Made by a program: the position numbers and the translations under genes
Part shown: positions 35,855-51,098 of the stretch, one piece after another
Layout: the number at the start of each line of letters is the position of its first letter
Position numbering within the stretch: position 1 is the first letter of the stretch
NCBI GenBank assembly: GCA_031271905.1
Contig: JAISUT010000056.1
Location: 1 to 64,000 of the forward strand
DNA length: 64,000 bases
DNA from: Acidobacteriota bacterium
GTDB taxonomy: Bacteria; Acidobacteriota; UBA6911
Reading direction: 5' to 3'
Notes under the pieces: generated by a model
Seen by the model: the letters and a program-made list of their open reading frames with translations, nothing else
Database searches by the model: none
Told to the model about the DNA's origin: nothing

Positions 35855-38107
<2,253 letters not shown>

Positions 38108-38194
38108 ACGGAATCCGTCGCAGGTTTCGCCCGGCCCGTCCGGGCGGTGGGGCGGAGGTTTCAACGACATGAGCCAAGATTGGAGGACAACTTT

Positions 38195-39952
38195 ATGAAA
38201 CGGCGCAATTCCGTGATGATCGTGATCGCGGCGCTGTGCCTCGCCCTGTTTTGCACATATTCGACCCGGAACAGCGAGGCGATCGCACAGGGCAAGGCGT
38301 CGGCGGAGAAGATCACGGTGCTCAACCCGTTGGGCACACCCCCGCCCATCAAACTGAAAACCATGGCGCCACGCCTGGACACCCTCGACGGCAAGACCAT
38401 CTACCTGGTCGATGACGGCTTCATCGGAGGCGACAACCTCCTGTACGAGATCCAGGATTGGTTCAAAGCCAACCATCCCAAGACCACGACCATCTTCAAA
38501 CGCAAAGGCGGCGGCGGCTTCGACGCCGAAGACCCCGCCCTGTGGGCGGAAATGAAGGAAAAAGCCGACGGCATAATCATCGCCTTGGGCCATTGAAGCC
38601 AGTGTGCCCCGGCAGTTGTCGGGCACTCCATCACCTTCGAGACCACGATGGGCATCCCTTCCGTCCCCATCGTCATCTCCGACTTCTACCAGCAGGAAAC
38701 CGAAAAAGCCCTCAACGAAGGCCTGCCCGGCTTGCGCACCCAGTGGATACGCGGCCCGGTCTGGGCGAAGACGCGCGAAGAACTGCGCCGCGACGTCATC
38801 GGCGGCAGGAACCCGATCACGAACCAGCCGGTGATGCAGGAGATCGTGGAGAAGTTCACCAAGCCCTTGACCGCCGAGGAGAAGCGCTCCGGCGAGATCG
38901 TCCGCGACAAGGGGCCGGCGACCTTCACCGACACGGAGGAGAACCTGCGCAAGATGTTCGAGGAGAAACGCTGGACCGACTTCCTCCCCATCGTGCTGCC
39001 GACCCCGGAGCGGGTCGATGAGATGCTCAAGGGGACCAGCCACGAGCCGGACGAGATCGTCGGCAAGATGTCGCCCACCAACACCGGGACTTATTTCGAA
39101 TACTGGACCTACACGGTCAAGGACGTCGCGGTCAACGCCGTGATGGCGGGCGCCAAGCCGGAATACTTCCCGCTGCTGCTGGCGGTGGCGGCGACGGGCA
39201 AGGAGTCGATGTCGGTCTCGGACAACTCGTTCGTGGCGGCGCTGGTCGTCAACGGCGCCATCCGCGATGAGATCGGCATCAACTACAAGGTCGGCGCGAT
39301 GGGGCCCTACTCGCACGCCAACACGACCATCGGACGCGCCTGGACGTTGATATCGATCAACCTCGGCAACTGCGGCAAGGTCGGCACGACCTACATGGGC
39401 GTGGTCGGCAACCCGATGAACCTGATCAACATCGTGATCGGCGAGAACGAGGAGGAATCCCCGTGGCAACCCTTCTCGGTGCGCAAGGGCTTCAAGAAGA
39501 ACGAGAACGTCGTCAGCCTGTTCGAGGGCTGGGGCGTCCTCTCGGCGGCGAACTGGAGGGCGGCGTCCTGGGGCAAGGAGATGGACTACCCCAAGATCAT
39601 CAAGGACATCTTCGACCAGCAGGGGATGCTGTTCGGGGCGTGCGCCATGTTGAGCCCGCCCATCGCCAACTTCGTCAAGAACGCGGGCTACGACACGGTG
39701 GAGAAGTTCGAGCAGTACCTCTCCCCGCCGATGCAGTTCCCAGGGATGCCTCCGGGGGCGAAGCCGAATGCGGGCGGCGCGCCGAAAGACCCCGCGCCCA
39801 AGGGCGACGGCGCGGCGGCGAAGGGGCCGATGCCCAAGATGCCGGCGATGTCCAACACGGCGATCCTCGTGACCGGCGGGACGAACAACAACTACTACAG
39901 CATCGGCGGCATGCGCTATTTGCAGAGCGTGCAGATCGACAACTGGCGGTAG
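38195..39952 (+). CDS. Secreted UGSC-family selenoprotein (in-frame TGA read as selenocysteine)
   Basis: 585 residues if TGA 38594-38596 encodes Sec134. The frame before it (38195-38593) and after it (38597-39952) is the same, with no other stop. The motif is H-U-S-Q-C (Sec134, Cys137), followed by a conserved-looking VVGHSITFETTMGIPSVPIVISDF. This matches the UGSC (seleno)protein family, where UGSC appears here as USQC. The C-terminal domain (about 280-500; VNAVMAGAKPEYFPLLLA, NGAIRDEIGINYKVGAMGP, NEEESPWQPFSV) is also that family's. Residues 1-33 look like a signal peptide, so it is probably exported. A Pro/Gly-rich stretch precedes the last 45 residues. GGAGG lies 8 bases before ATG 38195. 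The function is unknown; a thiol/selenol redox role is inferred. Confidence 0.82.
38594..38626 (+). promoter_or_regulatory. Candidate bacterial SECIS element after the Sec codon
   Basis: After TGA (38594-38596) the mRNA can fold GTGCCC (38604-38609) with GGGCAC (38621-38626) around an 11-nt loop CGGCAGTTGTC. The loop begins 13 nt after the TGA, slightly closer than typical bSECIS hairpins, and has G at its second position. Fold strength was judged by eye only. Confidence 0.55.
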
Positions 39953-43215: not shown

Positions 43216-43704
43216 TCACAGACGCCAATGGCCTTTGCCTGCGGAATAGATTAGCACTTCGCCGCTGCCCACGTCGATGGATACCGTGCGGCTAATCGTG
43301 CCTCCGACGTCCTCCGACGCGATGGACAGCCCCTGGGCCCAGAGGATGCTCCGCACGGCCTGCACGTTGCGCTTGCCGATGTTGAAGACGTCGTTCTTGT
43401 CCATGATGACGGCGCCGCCCGCCAGCTTCACGGACACGCCCAGCCCCTTGGCGCGGAAACCGATCCCGGACATGGCCTGGAAAAGGCGCGGCAACCCCGT
43501 GTCGGCGAAAAAGCCCGGTTTCTCGAGGGCGCGCTCGGGGTTCACGGCGGAGTCGGGCAGCGCGATGTGGATCATCCCCGCCGCAGGCAGGGCGGGACAG
43601 TGCATGATGACGGCGACGCAGGAGCCTAGCGCGTACGTCTTGATGGATGACGCGGCGTCCCTGGACACCCCGAAATCCCCGACCCCAAGGACGAGCTCGC
43701 TCAT
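43216..43704 (-). CDS. cheD: Chemoreceptor glutamine deamidase CheD
   Basis: 162 residues. The catalytic Cys29 is in TYALGSCVAVIMHCP and His46 in GMIHIALPDS; NIGKRNVQAVRSILWAQGL is the conserved CheD middle segment. It deamidates glutamines on chemoreceptors and may bind a CheC/CheY partner. The start overlaps the cheB stop (ATGA), giving tight coupling. Confidence 0.92.
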   Translation of the reverse strand: MSELVLGVGDFGVSRDAASSIKTYALGSCVAVIMHCPALPAAGMIHIALPDSAVNPERALEKPGFFADTGLPRLFQAMSGIGFRAKGLGVSVKLAGGAVIMDKNDVFNIGKRNVQAVRSILWAQGLSIASEDVGGTISRTVSIDVGSGEVLIYSAGKGHWRL

Positions 43705-44762
43705 CTGGACATCTCTTTCAACAGGCAGATGATCTCCACCGGCATCTTGTCCAGGGGGACGAGCCTTTCCGCCCCCCCTTTTTCAAATGCCACCTTGGGC
43801 ATGCCGAAGACGACGCAGCTCTCCTCGTCCTGGGCGATGTTGCGCCCCCCCGCCTGGCGCATCCGCAACATCCCCTCGGCGCCGTCCGACCCCATGCCCG
43901 TGAGCATCACGCCGACGGCGTTGGGGCCCACCTCGTGGGCGACCGAGTCCATCATCACGTCCACCGAGGGGCAATGGCCGCTGACTTTCGGCCCCTCGTG
44001 GCACGCCACCTGGTAAGTCCCGCCGCTGCGGATGACCTTGAGCTGCTTCCCGCCGGGGGCGATCAGGACATGGCCGGAACGCACCCGGTCGCCGCTCACC
44101 GCCTCCTTGACCTTCATCGCGCACAGATCGTCCAGGCGGTCGGCGAACATCTTGGTGAACCCCGCCGGCATGTGTTGCACCACCACCACCCCCGGCATGT
44201 CGGCGGGGAAGCGGGTGAGCAGCGCCCTGAGCGCCTCGGTGCCGCCGGTGGAGGCGCCGATGGCGATGACCTTGTCGGTCGAGCCCGCCAGCCAGGTCTT
44301 CTGCTCGGCGGTGACGTTCCTCGCGACCGCCTGCCGGTCTTTCTTCCAATGGGAGACGTTGGCGCGCGCCGCGATCTTGACCTTCTCGCACAAGGTGGCG
44401 ATCATGCCCTGTAAACCGGCGGCCATGTTGGCGGTCGGCTTGGTGACGAAATCGACCGCGCCCGCGTCCAGGGCGTCCAGCGTGATCTGGCCGCCCCTCT
44501 GGGTCAGCGAGCTGACCATGACGACCGGCAGGGGGTGCTGCGGCATCAGCCGCCGCAGGAACTGGACGCCGTCCATCTTGGGCATCTCCACGTCCAGCGT
44601 CAGGACGTCGGGCCGCAACTCCATGATCTTGTCCCGCGCCATGTACGGGTCGTTCGCCGTGCCGACCACCACGATGTCGGGGTCCATGCCCAACCCCCGC
44701 GAGAGTATCTGCCGCACCAGCGCGGAGTCGTCGACGACCAGGACGCGAATCTTACCTTGCAT
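43701..44762 (-). CDS. cheB: Chemotaxis response regulator methylesterase CheB
   Basis: 353 residues. The receiver domain has phospho-acceptor D57 (VLTLDVEMPKMDG). The methylesterase domain carries the Ser in VIAIGASTGGTEAL, the His in VVQHMPAGFTKMFADRL and the Asp in LTGMGSDGAEGM. It removes methyl groups from receptor glutamates after phosphorylation by CheA. It overlaps cheR by 11 bp and cheD by 4 bp. Confidence 0.95.
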   Translation of the reverse strand: MQGKIRVLVVDDSALVRQILSRGLGMDPDIVVVGTANDPYMARDKIMELRPDVLTLDVEMPKMDGVQFLRRLMPQHPLPVVMVSSLTQRGGQITLDALDAGAVDFVTKPTANMAAGLQGMIATLCEKVKIAARANVSHWKKDRQAVARNVTAEQKTWLAGSTDKVIAIGASTGGTEALRALLTRFPADMPGVVVVQHMPAGFTKMFADRLDDLCAMKVKEAVSGDRVRSGHVLIAPGGKQLKVIRSGGTYQVACHEGPKVSGHCPSVDVMMDSVAHEVGPNAVGVMLTGMGSDGAEGMLRMRQAGGRNIAQDEESCVVFGMPKVAFEKGGAERLVPLDKMPVEIICLLKEMSR

Positions 44763-45636
44763 CTGAAACCACCGCCTTCTGATACAACGCAGGCTGGATG
44801 TACCTGTACGCCTGCTGCTTCCTCCCCAAGGTCTCCGAATGGCCGATGAACAGGTATCCGCCCGGCTCGGTCACCTCGTAGAAGCGGTTGACCACCTTCT
44901 GCTTGTCGTTCTCGTCGAAATAGATCATGACGTTGCGGCAGAAGATGACGTGGAACGGCTTCCGGAACGGGTAGGATCTGTTCATCAGGTTGAAGCGCCG
45001 GAACGTCGCGTCCCGGCGCAGACGGTCTGCGATCCTGTAGCTGCCGTCGCCGAGGCGCGACGTGTATTTTTCGCGCAAGCGCGGCGGCAACGACGCGATC
45101 TTGTCCTCGCTGTAGACCCCCTCCTTGGCGACATCCAGCACCTGCTCCGAGATGTCGGTCGCCAAGATCCCCGCCTTCCAGTCGCTGGCGCCGGCGCCGA
45201 AGAACTCCGCCATGAGCATCAGCAGCATGTACGCCTCCTCGCCCGTGGAGCAGCCCGCGCACCAGACGCGCAGGTCGTTCTCGCCCTTGGCGCGCAACGA
45301 CGCCGTGATCGCAGGCAACGCCACTTTGGAGAAATACTCGAAGTGGTCGTTCTCGCGGTTGAAGAAGGTGTGGTTGGTCGAGATGCGGTTGACCAGCTCC
45401 TGCACCTGCCGCCGGTCGCTGCTCTTCGTCAGATGGTCGTAGTAGTTCTGGAAGGAGCCGAAGCCGGAGTCGCGGATGATCTTCTGCAGCCGCGAGACCA
45501 GCAGGGAGCGTTTCTTGTCCGTCAAGTGGATGCCGAACCGCCGGTGGATGTAGGTGCGGAAGAGGTCGAACTCCGCACCGCTGATGTCCATCAGGTAATG
45601 GTTGTTGAGGTTGGCTTCCATGGCCGGACCCGTCAT
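44752..45636 (-). CDS. cheR: Chemotaxis protein methyltransferase CheR
   Basis: 294 residues. The N-terminal helical domain (FRTYIHRRFGIHLTDKKRSLLVSRLQKII, FQNYYDHL, LVNRISTNHTFFNRE) is followed by the SAM domain (VWCAGCSTGEEAYMLLML, FNLMNRSYPFRKPFHVIFCRNVMIYF, GGYLFIGHSETL). It methylates receptor glutamates with SAM. The start ATG 45636 has GGAAGG at 9 bases. It lies between the MCP gene and cheB. Confidence 0.95.
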   Translation of the reverse strand: MTGPAMEANLNNHYLMDISGAEFDLFRTYIHRRFGIHLTDKKRSLLVSRLQKIIRDSGFGSFQNYYDHLTKSSDRRQVQELVNRISTNHTFFNRENDHFEYFSKVALPAITASLRAKGENDLRVWCAGCSTGEEAYMLLMLMAEFFGAGASDWKAGILATDISEQVLDVAKEGVYSEDKIASLPPRLREKYTSRLGDGSYRIADRLRRDATFRRFNLMNRSYPFRKPFHVIFCRNVMIYFDENDKQKVVNRFYEVTEPGGYLFIGHSETLGRKQQAYRYIQPALYQKAVVSDAR

Positions 45637-45660
45637 CTCCGCACGCCTTCCATTTTCAAA

Positions 45661-47547
45661 CTAATAGCGTCCGAACTCGCTGTCATCCAGCGCGATGAAA
45701 TCGTCGGACGCCTTCGTCTGCTTCTGCACCTCCCGCGCCGCCAGGTGGGGCGGGAACTCGTCGGCGAAATCCTCCGCCGTCTTCGGCCAGTTGCGCTCGT
45801 CCCCGCGCTTGCCGGGGCGTTTGGCGGGCGGTTCGGCGACCCCCCTGTCGCCTTCGCCCTGATGGGGCTGCCCCTGGTTGCGGAGCTTGAACCGGTTGAG
45901 GAGCTTGCGCAGATGCTGCGCCTGGCTCGCCAGCTCTTCGCTCGCCGCCGCGCTCTCCTCGGCGTTGGCGGTGTTCTGCTGGGTGACGCTCTCGATCTGG
46001 CTCAACCCCTGGTTGATCTGGCCGATGCCCTGCGACTGCTCGTTGGAGGCGGCGGCGATCTCCGCCACCAGATCCGTGGTCTTGGTGATGCCGGTGACGA
46101 TCTCGGACAGGGCCGCAGCCGTGCGCTTGGCGATGTCCACGCCGTGCTCGGCCTTGCCGACCGAGCCTTCGATCAGGTCGGCGGTCTCACGCGCCGCCTG
46201 GGCGCTGCGGGCGGCGAGGTTGCGCACCTCCTCCGCCACCACGGCGAAGCCCTTGCCGTGCTGCCCCGCGCGGGCCGCCTCCACCGCCGCGTTCAACGCC
46301 AGGAGGTTGGTCTGGAAGGCGATCTCGTCGATCACCTTGATGATCTTGGAGATGTTCTGGCCGGAGGCGTTGATGTCGTCCATGGCGGCCATCATCTCCT
46401 TCATCTGCTCGTTCCCTTTCTCCGCCGCGCTCCGGGCCTGGGTGGAGAGCTGGTTGGCCTGCGCCGCGTTCTCGGCGTTTTGCTTGGTCTGGGCGCTGAT
46501 CTCCGTCATGGAGCTGGTGATCTGCTCCAGGGAGCTGGCCTGCTCGGTGGCGCCTTGCGAGAGCGACTGGCTGGAGTCGGAGACCTGCGTGGAGCCTCCG
46601 GCGATCTGGTTGCCCGCGGTCTGCACCTGTTCGAGGATGCCGTTGAGCGTCTCGGTCATGGACTTGAGGGCGCGGCCGAACTGGTCTTTCTCCGAGCGCA
46701 CCGGGACGTCCACGTCCAGGTTCCCCTTGGCGATCTCCTCCGCAACGCCCGCCGCCGCCCCGAGCGTCTCCGCGATGCTGTCGAAGTTCTGGATGAGCAC
46801 GCCGAGCTCGTCCTTGCGGTCTTCGGTGATGCGCACGCTGAAATCGCCCTTGACGATCTCCGTCGCCATCCCCAGGACTTTTTTGATCGGGACCGTGATG
46901 CTCCGCTCCAGGAAGAAACCCAGGACGATGGCGGCGACGAAGACGGCGCCGAAAGTCAGCGAGATCATCAAGAGGACGAAGTTGTACGTGGACGCCTCCT
47001 CCGTCTCCAGGTCGGAGACGAGCTTGTCGTTGATCGCCTGGATCTTCGCCATGTCCTCGCGCATGGATTCGAACCTGTCCGCGCCGGTGCCCTCGTCCAG
47101 CATCTTCAAGGCGGCGGAGCGATCCGAGTTGCGGAGGGCGTCGATGCGCTTCCTGGAACTCTCCACCCAGGCGTTCAGATGGGTTTGGAACACCGGGTCG
47201 ATGGCCCTGGACTCGTCGCTTACGAATGTCGCGACCGCCTTCGCCCAGCTCTCTTTCGCCTGCGCCACGTTCTCTTCATACTCCTTGTTCAGCTTGTCGA
47301 ACTTCTCCGTGCCCGGCTCGGTGAAGGTCATCGTCCGGAGCGCCACGCGGGCCTGTTGGAGGTCGCGGTCTGCGCTCAGGATGCCGTTCGTGACGGGGAG
47401 CCGGTGGTGGATGGCCGTGTCGCACAACGTCTTTATGATGCCCAGCCCCCTGTAGCTCATAAAGGCCAGGACCCCCGTCAACAGCAACACGACGGCGAAG
47501 CTGCTCAGCAACTTCATTCCGATCTTGAGATCTCTAAACCACTTCAT
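45661..47547 (-). CDS. Methyl-accepting chemotaxis protein with 4HB-type sensor and HAMP
   Basis: 628 residues. TM1 is at about 10-34. A helical periplasmic region of about 150 residues ([31 protein letters not shown]...) follows, resembling a four-helix-bundle MCP sensor. TM2 is at about 188-210, followed by HAMP ([23 protein letters not shown]). The signalling tip reads [29 protein letters not shown]. There is no C-terminal NWETF-type tether. ATG 47547 ([13 protein letters not shown]) is the natural membrane start. It is the only receptor in the cluster and is presumably the input for this CheA/CheW. Confidence 0.93.
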
Positions 47548-47659
47548 AGCACTCCCCTCCACAACGCAAAGTAATTCCAAAACCCGTCTGCAAGGCCCGC
47601 CGCCCGCCGCGCCGACGCGACGGCGTGGGCTCGACGCCCCGCGGCCTTACGCGCGCCCC

Positions 47660-48169
47660 TCAGTCCGCGGCCTGCGCGTGTTCCGCGGCATCCTCGTACA
47701 GCAGCCGCCGGACGTCGAGGAGTATCTTGACCTCGCCCCCCGCCTTGCCGATGCCCTGTATGTAGCTGGGGCCGCCCTTGCCCGTGTGGGGCGCGGGCTC
47801 GATCTGGTCTTCGGGGATGGACGCCACCTCGTTGACCTTGTCCACCACCAGCCCCACGGCCTTGTCCTCGACGTTGACCACCACGATGCATGTGCGCTCG
47901 TCGTACTCCCGCTCCGGGAGGTTGAAACGGATGCGCACGTCCATCACCGGGATGACCTTGCCGCGCAGGTTGATGACCCCTTTGACGAAGCGGGGCAGGT
48001 CGGGGACGTCGGTTATCTTCTGGATGCCGATGATCTCCGTGACGTAGCGGATCTCGAAGCCGTAGTCCTCGTTCGCCAGGCGAAAGGTGAGGAACCGCCC
48101 TTTCAGCGTGTCCTCCTCGACGCCCATGACATCCTCATCGACCGTTTTCTCTGCCAGCGCACTTCCCAT
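47660..48169 (-). CDS. cheW: Chemotaxis coupling protein CheW
   Basis: About 169 residues. The CheW fold is clear: FLTFRLANEDYGFEIRYVTEIIGIQKITDVPDLPRFVKGVINLRGKVIPVMDVRIRFNL and VVNVEDKAVGLVVDKVNEVASI. It links the MCP to CheA. The start is uncertain (ATG 48169 or 48178; both are near a GGATGGGGA stretch). It sits between cheA and the MCP gene. Confidence 0.92.
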   Translation of the reverse strand: MGSALAEKTVDEDVMGVEEDTLKGRFLTFRLANEDYGFEIRYVTEIIGIQKITDVPDLPRFVKGVINLRGKVIPVMDVRIRFNLPEREYDERTCIVVVNVEDKAVGLVVDKVNEVASIPEDQIEPAPHTGKGGPSYIQGIGKAGGEVKILLDVRRLLYEDAAEHAQAAD

Positions 48170-48338
48170 TTTCCCCATCCTGTTTTTTTTCGGCCCGTGG
48201 CACGCCGCCCGTGGCAAGTATCCATACCCTGTGTGACGCGACCGCGTCACGCCTGCCGCCACGGCGCCCCGTCTGCGGCATCCCATCCCTATCGCCCCTT
48301 CCCGGCCCCCGGTTCGCCGCACCGGTCGCGACGCCCCG

Positions 48339-50828
48339 TCACACGCCCGCCGCCTGCAACTCCCGCTCGTACTCCAGCTCCACCAGCGAACCGATGTCCA
48401 GGATCAGGCAGACCTCGCCGTTGCCCAGGATGGTGCAGCCGGAGATGCCCCGTATGTTGCCGATGTAGTCGGACAACCCCTTGATGACGGTCTGCTGCTG
48501 CCCCAGGATCTCGTCCACCTGGAGGCAGAAGCTGACCCCCTGGTCCTCCATCACGACCAGGACGCCATCTTCGACCTGCTCGAAGTCGTCCTGTTCCTGG
48601 AGCAGGTCGGCGAGCCGCCGGATGGGGAAGAACTTGTCCCGTATCTGCGCCATCCGCCGCCCGTCGGGCATCACGGTGATGTCGCCCGCCGTGGGGCGTA
48701 TGATCTCCCGGATGGCGATCAACGGCGCGATGCACTTGGTCTTGCCCACCCGTATGAGCATGCCGTCGATGATGGCGAGCGTCAGCGGGATGCGCAGCTT
48801 CATCTGCGTGCCCTTGCCCGGCTTGCTCTGGATGTCGATCTTCCCCTTGATCTTCTCCAAGTTCTGCTTCACGACGTCCATGCCGACGCCGCGCCCGGAG
48901 ATGTCGGTGACCTTCTCGGCGGTGGAGAAGCCGGGCTGGAAGATCAGCCCGAACACGGCCTTCTCCGACAGGTCGGCGCCGTCGCCTTGGACGAGCCCCT
49001 TGCCGCGCGCCTTCTCCAATATCTTCTCCTTGTCCAGCCCCCGCCCGTCGTCCTCGACGGTGATCCAGATCTCGCCCTCCTCGTGGCGCGCCGAGAGCCT
49101 GACCACGCCCGTCTCGGGCTTGCCCGACTTGACCCGCTCGTCCGGGGTCTCCAGGCCGTGGTCGAGGGAGTTGCGCAACAGGTGCACCAAGGGGTCGGTG
49201 ATGGTCTCGACCACGGTCTTGTCCACCTCCGTCTCCTCGCCCGACAGTTGCAGGTCCACCTTCTTGCCCGACTTGACCGAGAGGTCGTGGACCAGGCGGA
49301 TCATCTTTTTGAACAGGCCGGATACCGGGATCATGCGGATGGTCATCGCCATCTCCTGCAACTCCCGGATGAGCTTCTCCATCTGCTGCGCCGCCTTGTT
49401 GAAGTTCTCCAGGTGCAGACCCGCCAGGTCGGGGTTGTTGACCAGCATGTTCTCGGCGATGACCAGCTCGCCGATGACGTTGATCAGGTCGTCGAGCTTG
49501 CCGAGGTCCACGCGGATGTCCTGGCGCTTGAGCTGGGCGGGCTTCGCGCCCCCCGAAGACGGCGGGAGGATGGGGGGGGTGTTCTTCCGCTCCTCCTGCT
49601 CGTGCAGGGCGGCCTCGACCTGCTCCGGCGTGACCTTCCCCATCTCCACGAGCCGTTCGCCGATGGGGCCGGGCTGCTTGGAGAGCGCCTCGTCCACGGC
49701 CTCCTTCTCGACCAGCCCCTGGCGCACCAGTATCTCCCCGACGCGGGGCACGGTCAGGTTCTTGATGGCGTCGACGAACTGGTCGATGTCGGCGATCTGC
49801 CCTGCGCCCCCGCGCCCGATGTCGGCGATGGAGTTTTTCAAGGCGTCGATGTAGCCGAGGAGGAACTCGGCGGGGTTGTCGATGTTGGTCGGCACCCCCT
49901 CCCGCACCTCGTCCAGCAAGCTCTCCATGTTATGCGCGAGCCGCTCCGGATCCTTGTACCCGAAGAAACCGCAGTTGCCTTTGAAGCTGTGGACGTTGCG
50001 GAACACGTCCGAGACCAGGTCGATGTTCTCCGGGCTTTCAGACCAGAGCAGCAACCCCTGTTCGATGGCGTGCAACAGGTCGTCGGACTCTTGGACGAAG
50101 GCGCCGAGCATCTCGGGCGGGATGAGGTCGGCGGGGTCGTCCGCCACATCTCGCCCCCCGTCCCCCCCTGCGCCGTCCGCCGGCGTCGCCGCGCCGGGGG
50201 CGGGTTCGGCGGCCGCCGCGTCGCAGCTTTCCGCAGCCTTCTCTGCGGCGGCGATGGCCGCCTCCAGGAGTTGCTTCATCTGCGCGGACTTCTCCTGCAT
50301 GGCCTCGTCGTTGCCGTCATGCTCCAGCCTGTCGAGGGACTCCTTTGCGAAATCGCAGGTCTGGCAGAGCAGATCCACGTGTCCGGGCTGCATCTTCACC
50401 TTGCCCGAACGGATGCGGTCGAGCAGGCTTTCCGCCGCGTGGGCGGAGGCGACGATGTTGTTGAGCCCGAGGAAGCCCGCGCTCCCCTTCATGGAGTGGA
50501 AGAGCCGGAAGATGGCGTTCATGGTCTCGCCGTCGCCGTTGATCTGCGCGAACACCCGGCACTGCTTGCACCCCGCCTCCGAGCTCGCATAGGGGCAGGT
50601 CTGGTCGCCACCGCCGACGTACCCCTTGTGCAGCCAGCACGGGTAGTCGATCCTGTTGCCGTGGCGCGGGCAGCCGGTGTTCTCGCAACCGAGCGTCGCC
50701 CAGCAGTCGGCGTCGTGGCAGTGCTGCCCCAACTCGATGATGGTCGGTTCGAGCTGTTCGATCATCTCACGGTTTTCCTGGATGAAATCGACCAGTATCT
50801 CGTCTAACTCGTTGAAGACTTCGCTCAT
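48339..50828 (-). CDS. cheA: Chemotaxis histidine kinase CheA with two Hpt domains and a cysteine-rich insertion
   Basis: 829 residues. The first Hpt has its phospho-His at H111 (RLFHSMKGSAGFLG). Residues 36-93, between its first two helices, are an insertion with eight cysteines (37, 42, 48, 53, 64, 78, 87, 90) and two CW pairs (42-43, 64-65), recalling a two-CW domain. A second Hpt has H280 (RNVHSFKGNCGFFG). Residues about 360-412 (VGEILVRQGLVEKEAVDEAL) look like a GspE-N/MshEN-type helical repeat. Dimerisation, HATPase (VETITDPLVHLLRNSLDHGLE, DDGRGLDKEKIL, GRGVGMDVVKQNLEKIKG) and CheW domains complete it. Candidate starts are ATG 50828 or 50834. Confidence 0.92.
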   Translation of the reverse strand: MSEVFNELDEILVDFIQENREMIEQLEPTIIELGQHCHDADCWATLGCENTGCPRHGNRIDYPCWLHKGYVGGGDQTCPYASSEAGCKQCRVFAQINGDGETMNAIFRLFHSMKGSAGFLGLNNIVASAHAAESLLDRIRSGKVKMQPGHVDLLCQTCDFAKESLDRLEHDGNDEAMQEKSAQMKQLLEAAIAAAEKAAESCDAAAAEPAPGAATPADGAGGDGGRDVADDPADLIPPEMLGAFVQESDDLLHAIEQGLLLWSESPENIDLVSDVFRNVHSFKGNCGFFGYKDPERLAHNMESLLDEVREGVPTNIDNPAEFLLGYIDALKNSIADIGRGGAGQIADIDQFVDAIKNLTVPRVGEILVRQGLVEKEAVDEALSKQPGPIGERLVEMGKVTPEQVEAALHEQEERKNTPPILPPSSGGAKPAQLKRQDIRVDLGKLDDLINVIGELVIAENMLVNNPDLAGLHLENFNKAAQQMEKLIRELQEMAMTIRMIPVSGLFKKMIRLVHDLSVKSGKKVDLQLSGEETEVDKTVVETITDPLVHLLRNSLDHGLETPDERVKSGKPETGVVRLSARHEEGEIWITVEDDGRGLDKEKILEKARGKGLVQGDGADLSEKAVFGLIFQPGFSTAEKVTDISGRGVGMDVVKQNLEKIKGKIDIQSKPGKGTQMKLRIPLTLAIIDGMLIRVGKTKCIAPLIAIREIIRPTAGDITVMPDGRRMAQIRDKFFPIRRLADLLQEQDDFEQVEDGVLVVMEDQGVSFCLQVDEILGQQQTVIKGLSDYIGNIRGISGCTILGNGEVCLILDIGSLVELEYERELQAAGV

Positions 50829-51098
50829 CCCCATCTCCCGCCTGGCGGCTCAGGTTTGTCCGGGTCTACATATCGTCGCCGCGCCCCCGCACCGTAATTT
50901 TTTTCGGGCGAAACGCGGCAAAAAACGCTGTAGCCGTCGTCGGTTTCGCTTTCGGCGCAGGCGGGGGATGCAAGGGGGGGGGCCAAGGGGGGCCATGGAA
51001 GGCCTATGGATGGAATGGGGACGCCGCCCGCCGGGGTCGTTTCAAATCATGCGTGGATGTTGCAGGGAAGCCCGCCGGGGTCGGCGGACGCGCCGGTT

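Follow-up and report, generated by a model that had tools for sequence, protein, structure and literature searches.

The question raised by this locus is whether two open reading frames that are interrupted by a TGA codon encode one selenoprotein, and what such a protein would do. The locus lies in a stretch of 64,000 nucleotides from an Acidobacteriota bacterium (contig JAISUT010000056.1), which is called the window here. As the first-pass annotation had proposed, the two open reading frames form one frame, 38195-39952, when the single in-frame TGA at 38594-38596 is read as selenocysteine (Sec, U). The parts of this gene, hereafter the window gene, and its upstream neighbour are listed below together with the evidence for each.

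35981..38107, plus strand: upstream neighbour, which we take from its sequence to be an NAD-dependent DNA ligase-like gene; stop TGA at 38105-38107
38182..38186, plus strand: Shine-Dalgarno-like GGAGG, with the ATG 8 nt downstream (sequence)
38195..39952, plus strand: whole gene, predicted selenoprotein with a UGSC domain and a C-terminal domain, 585 codons and TAG
38195..38287, plus strand: predicted signal peptide, aa 1-31 (MKRRNSVMIVIAALCLALFCTYSTRNSEAIA, followed by Q; N-terminal features, with the cleavage site placed by eye from the A-x-A pattern)
38318..38794, plus strand: UGSC domain (PF24696), aa 42-200, predicted Rossmann/flavodoxin-like alpha/beta sandwich (Pfam, model)
38594..38596, plus strand: in-frame TGA, residue 134, predicted selenocysteine in H-U-S-Q-C context (frame, family rows, orthologues)
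38603..38605, plus strand: codon of Cys137, the partner to Sec134 in U-S-Q-C (sequence, alignment)
38604..38626, plus strand: predicted SECIS hairpin of bacterial type, at +8 to +30 from the TGA, with a bulged C (folding)
38648..39952, plus strand: orphan open reading frame of 434 aa, with its ATG 3' of the TGA, as expected from automatic annotation (ORF list)
38900..39949, plus strand: C-terminal domain, aa 236-585 (split-gene relatives, structure searches)
39719..39853, plus strand: variable Pro/Gly/Ala/Lys-rich linker, about aa 509-553 (alignment; pLDDT <50 at 515-552)
39854..39949, plus strand: conserved C-terminal segment, ILVTGGTNNNYYSIGG...SVQIDNWR (alignment)

The Pro/Gly-rich stretch had been taken for a C-terminal tail, and this was wrong; it is an internal linker, and a conserved segment follows 3' of it, with the family pattern IIVTGGxNNNY...SVxIDxWR in the alignment. 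The suspicion of mis-annotation was well founded, and ordinary annotation cuts genes of this kind in two at the TGA. Among the 120 matches listed of 4703, almost all are fragments: 119 of these database proteins cover 66-75% of the query, and the one long match (P0112) carries Leu at the Sec position. Downstream of the window gene, a chemotaxis-like cluster lies on the minus strand at 43216-50834; from their translations, we take its genes to be CheD-, CheB-, CheR-, MCP-, CheW- and CheA-like.

Decoding of the TGA codon

The reading of TGA as selenocysteine had been made to depend on the decoding machinery, and selA, selB, selD and tRNA-Sec (UCA; gene anticodon TCA) are all present in the source genome, an assembly of 3.4 Mb in 67 contigs with an estimated completeness of 99.8%. 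The selD gene (locus L010, contig C3) has one in-frame TGA of its own, like the known Sec-containing SelD proteins. In the same genome TGA doubles as an ordinary stop codon, as at the end of the upstream gene (38105-38107).

Orthologues of the window gene were found in eight separate genomes of the genus, and all eight have TGA at the aligned codon. Because the TGA recurs in separate assemblies, a sequencing error is very unlikely. With the leader left out, the dN values of the orthologues are 0.07-0.22 against dS values of 0.6-2.0, which are partly near saturation, on both sides of the TGA, and purifying selection acts on either side of it. The closest named match among the matches listed, L071 from an Acidobacteriota MAG, is 81% identical. 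Over the wider family, the homologues also align at residue 134 as anticipated: of the 142 rows left after deduplication, one of them the window's, 110 show TGA, 16 Cys and 16 another residue at this position. Ser, Thr, Leu, Asn and others replace Sec in some family rows, which shows that the scaffold can be retained in its absence. In a quick tree built from 133 rows, the Cys forms are nested among the Sec forms, which points to Sec-to-Cys changes. Seven of these forms, from Pseudomonadota and one actinobacterium, read HCSTC, and three come from Acidobacteriota (L079 twice and L080); L080 is without the second Cys, too.

Two further loci of the family were recorded. At L057:5221-10974 (contig C67 of the source genome), three paralogues of the UGSC type lie in tandem, with leaders that are Tat-like and with Ser at the Sec position; the aligned residue of one of them varies with the alignment, and all three fall in Sec-poor branches of the tree. 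On plasmid pFER4 of Paracoccus ferrooxidans (L159), selA, a TGA-cut UGSC gene, DsrE/TusA genes and selB lie within about 15 kb, and this stretch is possibly a mobile Sec-decoding island.

A hairpin with the apical loop AGUU at +18 to +21 (centre +19) was predicted 3' of the TGA. The stability of 27-nt windows was compared with that of protein-preserving shuffles, in which codons were drawn by the gene's own usage. The excess stability was maximal at +19, with a mean of -2.63 kcal/mol for the 39 genus-set rows with TGA. The genus set consists largely of the top matches to the window and so leans to its close kin; one row in it comes from another genus of the same taxonomic family (G014). For the 71 TGA rows outside the genus set the value at +19 was -3.85 kcal/mol. 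One row of the named set described below, L073, also comes from the window's genus. The control values at +19 were -0.10 (16 Cys rows), -0.13 (9 other-residue rows) and +0.30 kcal/mol (7 other-residue rows). The z values were lower in TGA than in Cys rows, with a p value of 8.9e-5 that is optimistic because the rows are related. Taken singly, p 0.05 was reached by only 6 of the 39 genus-set rows with TGA, by 19 of the 71 other TGA rows and by none of the 16 Cys rows. The window's own hairpin was not significant against its shuffles (z -0.97, p 0.195), and a search of Rfam gave no relevant match for it. The SECIS signal emerges from the TGA genes taken together. In seven distinct hairpins of the orthologues, nearly all inner pairs are kept, with one pair broken at 12-27, and compensating changes are seen between C12-G27 and G12-C27 and between G15-C24 and A15-U24.

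We regard the decoding of TGA134 as selenocysteine as close to certain, and the gene is very likely that of a real selenoprotein, with a predicted U-S-Q-C motif. A true stop, with which the gene would be truncated, decayed or split into two open reading frames and no selenocysteine would be inserted, is suggested by the TGA that ends the upstream gene and by the 3' half that stands alone in the databases, but it has a negligible probability against the TGA held by all eight orthologues, the purifying selection on both sides, the Sec machinery in the genome, the Cys homologues at the same residue and the group signal of the hairpin.

Domains, leader and relation to GrdB and PrdB

The resemblance to the UGSC family noted at first reading stood at the level of Pfam, and not at that of the NCBIfam equivalog. 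The Pfam family PF24696 matches aa 42-200, spanning the TGA, with 78.9 bits against a cut-off of 25, whereas NF041046 gives 51.9 bits against a cut-off of 125, and the gene is not filed as this equivalog; the plasmid relatives P0123 and P0124 also stay under the NF041046 cut-off. The family position is occupied by the predicted Sec with C at +3, namely U134-S-Q-C137. The literal UGSC motif is not present in the window protein, and HUSxC and GUxGC are common in its clade. The protein shares with the family (PF24696/NF041046) the homologous UGSC domain over the TGA and U or C at the same residue, and it differs by its USQC, its leader, its NCBIfam score below the cut-off and the many paralogues per genome.

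Haloarchaea, Roseovarius and Variovorax encode the UGSC protein in one gene and the C-terminal part in another, adjacent to it. The predicted window protein joins this UGSC domain and a domain of about 350 residues, which are products of separate neighbouring genes elsewhere. The UGSC family and its fusion to a conserved domain, Unknown_1, were reported in 2008 (PMC2398784), and the fusion in the window gene is apparently the same, judging from the text and the legend of Fig. S1 of that paper. A predicted model of the whole protein had a mean pLDDT of 84. In this model, strands and helices alternate in the UGSC part to form a sandwich, and residue 134 falls between the strand 126-132 and the helix 137-150. 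Structure comparison matched the model to Rossmann-like and receiver-like chains of a generic kind, most of them at Z 8-10. The fold predicted for the UGSC domain is Rossmann/flavodoxin-like, and as a model it disagrees with the Trx-like fold that was guessed for UGSC in the accessible part of PMC2398784. The C-terminal domain alone (model pLDDT 82) gave no convincing fold match in the PDB searches run. Selenoproteins with a thioredoxin fold (DsbA-, Trx- and Prx-like) have the UxxC pair in common with the window protein, which differs from them in its predicted fold. DsbA-like thioredoxin-fold selenoproteins have an extracytoplasmic place, and formate dehydrogenase-N/O is an exported bacterial selenoprotein of unrelated fold, a molybdopterin enzyme that is translocated by Tat with its partners.

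By composition, the N-terminus is a signal-peptide-like leader, as the first-pass annotation had described it, with a positive n-region, a KD10 of 3.3 and an A-x-A site. By our own composition rule, which is not SignalP and leaves unscored the rows without a domain start in the fetched frame, 37 of the 38 genus-set rows with Sec have an N-terminal extension that contains a hydrophobic core. Among the other Sec rows, a hydrophobic leader was found in 18 of 70 and a Tat-like motif in 12 of 70, and these two counts overlap. When the rule was applied to the rows without Sec, it found leaders in 4 of 9 other-residue rows of the genus set, and, in the named set, in 3 of the 16 rows with Cys and in none of the 7 with other residues. 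Many proteobacterial and Chloroflexota rows begin at the UGSC domain itself. Since leaders are also present in other family members, predicted export is not a peculiarity of the window gene, as it had been thought to be. We predict with good confidence that the window protein is exported.

The relation to known selenoprotein reductases was examined by profile comparison. The UGSC profile (20 rows) matched the GRDB profile (PF07355; 15 Acidobacteriota rows) with 80% probability and E 1.4e-5, with the strand, UxxC, the helix and GIP in register. The controls were pairs with the C-terminal domain (0.6% and 0.2%) and ten column shuffles (2.0% at most), other Rossmann-type families not being among them, and the match may also stem from a shared fold of Rossmann type in proteins that are not closely akin. 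When every Cys was masked, the match fell on the same alignment to 19% (E 0.0012), which indicates that part of the signal comes from the UxxC common to both. The PF07355 profile gave no match to the window protein up to E 10, and the protein is not filed as GrdB/PrdB; one stand-alone UGSC homologue matches PrdB weakly (E 0.066). The glycine/sarcosine/betaine reductase selenoprotein B and the D-proline reductase PrdB resemble the predicted window protein as redox selenoproteins with UxxC and GIP, while the latter has no PF07355 match, another second domain and a predicted export. From this comparison of sequences, the window protein may work like the GrdB/PrdB-type reductases. In Acidobacteriota, GRDB-like genes above the Pfam cut-off were found in 62 of 247 genomes; an in-frame TGA opens a UxxC-like motif in at least 15 of the 30 GRDB-like loci read (L160-L189), and the genes with this TGA also look like selenoprotein genes.

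Neighbour genes and a candidate chemistry

Neighbour genes were read in the named set, which is the best 80 of at least 577 confirmed loci. A TrxR-like flavoprotein is encoded in 19 of these 80 loci, 15 times within 300 bp and 18 times on the same strand, and in none of the 20 genus-set loci. When the named loci were divided by hand according to leader type, with L135 and L139 counted among the others, the TrxR-like gene occurred in 0 of 23 exported and 19 of 57 other loci (p 9e-4), a contrast that is confounded by phylogeny. L135 has an exported and a cytosolic copy, and its TrxR-like gene lies at a distance of 2.1 kb on the opposite strand; L139 has a leader and no TrxR.

At L097, from a Terriglobia bacterium, a WCPPC thioredoxin gene lies directly downstream of an exported copy and a rhodanese-like gene 0.5 kb on, and relatives of these two genes lie 1.6 and 0.3 kb from the copy at L100, on the opposite strand. 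All four genes (L097:7661-8682 and L100:4151-5688) have leaders and come from two phyla; L097 and L100 are sister rows on the tree, so they are not independent. Genes that we take from their sequence to be PQQ-dehydrogenase-like lie 0.1-1.5 kb from the family gene at L074, L081, L082, L075 and L111, which have Tat-type copies, and 3.5 kb from the cytosolic copy at L119. Next to the window gene, no thioredoxin-, TrxR-, rhodanese- or PQQ-dehydrogenase-like partner was found; the source genome encodes one DsbD-like protein. Transporter and CoA-transferase genes lie near the plasmid relatives, which suggests a small organic compound as the substrate. Exported HUSSC copies from two phyla, at L053:7238-8348 in the source genome and at L085:5385-6423, have a common leader-bearing neighbour, which is 53% identical between them and is encoded on the same strand at distances of 173 and 264 bp.

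The resemblance of UGSC to GrdB/PrdB, together with the TrxR-like gene that often lies beside cytosolic, not exported, relatives, argues for a substrate reductase that was relocated. We consider it somewhat probable on balance that the locus is a single UGSC frame with TGA as Sec, whose exported product is predicted to be a selenol/thiol reductase of a small substrate. In this mechanism, SelB and Sec-tRNA would be recruited by the hairpin 3' of the TGA, and the leader would route the chain outward via the Sec pathway. Sec134, which the model places at the strand-helix junction of the Rossmann-like domain, would make the attack on the substrate in the manner of GrdB/PrdB-type reductases, and the intermediate so formed would be resolved by Cys137. 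Forming the substrate site, or gating it, would fall to the C-terminal domain. Extracytoplasmic thiol donors of the DsbD/TlpA type would re-reduce the Sec-Cys pair, and would replace the TrxR-like partner of the cytosolic relatives. The reductase chemistry as drawn, with attack by Sec134 and resolution by Cys137, is tentative, and we give it slightly under an even chance.

The UxxC pair and the TrxR-like or thioredoxin neighbours in relatives would also suit an exported general thiol oxidoreductase, or a thioredoxin- or peroxiredoxin-like antioxidant acting on peroxides or disulfides, rather than a specific reductase. We hold this to be rather unlikely, since the predicted fold is Rossmann/flavodoxin-like, the large second domain and the many diverged paralogues suggest substrate specificity, and the plasmid loci of relatives, with their transporter and CoA-transferase genes, are like catabolic loci. 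As for the place of the enzyme, the leader could be an uncleaved anchor that tethers it to the inner membrane instead of leaving it free in the periplasm. The leader core is strongly hydrophobic, and two recurring Cys, at aa 15 and 20, are each present in 55% of 40 rows, but many rows, judged by eye and uncounted, have an A-x-A-like site ahead of the mature start, and no lipobox was flagged in the window protein, and we judge such an anchor improbable. Finally, there is a small chance that the role of the Sec-Cys pair outside the cytosol is to bind a metal, metalloid or sulfur species or to pass it on, as the rhodanese-like genes near L097 and L100 and the DsrE/TusA genes near the Paracoccus copy could indicate; however, such neighbours are few, with rhodanese in 2 of 110 sources screened and DsrE/TusA in 0 of 80 named loci. 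An exported reductase of a small substrate is the reading that we prefer.

Paralogues and significance of the family

The source genome has 11 matches to the family, and the 10 copies read comprise 6 with Sec and 4 with Ser or Thr. Two congeneric genomes have more: all 18 copies read in G005, of 19 matches, have Sec, and G007 has 18 Sec and 3 Ser among 21 copies read, of 22 matches, although these copy numbers could shift by a few, as the assemblies are fragmented and the estimated contamination of G005 and G007 is 2-3%. With the automatic choice of start codons, 12 of the 18 Sec copies of G005 have a clear leader, which suggests that exported and apparently cytosolic paralogues coexist.

Such an expansion, with 18 Sec genes of one family per genome, may be set against the 33 UGSC selenoproteins from 26 organisms given in Table 3 of a survey of >5200 bacteria (PMC5029168); in the accessible part of that survey, the largest bacterial selenoproteome named has 39 genes, all families included. 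For the one Acidobacteriota genome tested in PMC12013277, the accessible part reports 3 known selenoprotein genes. UGSC-like selenoprotein families are still largely uncharacterised according to a 2026 review (PMC13188914), in whose accessible text the words 'signal peptide', 'exported' and 'extracytoplasmic' are absent. In the open-licence literature, which was the scope of the search, with subscription journals outside it, no mention was found of exported UGSC proteins or of a UGSC expansion. What is new here is the predicted Sec- and Tat-type leaders in the UGSC family, and the expansion to 18 Sec copies each in two congeneric genomes, with 6 in the source genome.

A broader proposal, which we offer as possible but somewhat doubtful, is that one genus relocated a GrdB/PrdB-like selenoreductase outside the cytosol and multiplied it into an extracytoplasmic set with differing substrates, which has been hidden by mis-annotation at the TGA. 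This proposal is based on the presence of 18 diverged paralogues with Sec in each of two genomes (3.8 and 5.4 Mb), on leaders in most copies of the one genome examined for leaders, and on the fused second domain, whose fold is unrecognised. With a partner gene, the link to GrdB/PrdB, an exported branch and the paralogue expansion, the UGSC proteins would become a testable enzyme family.
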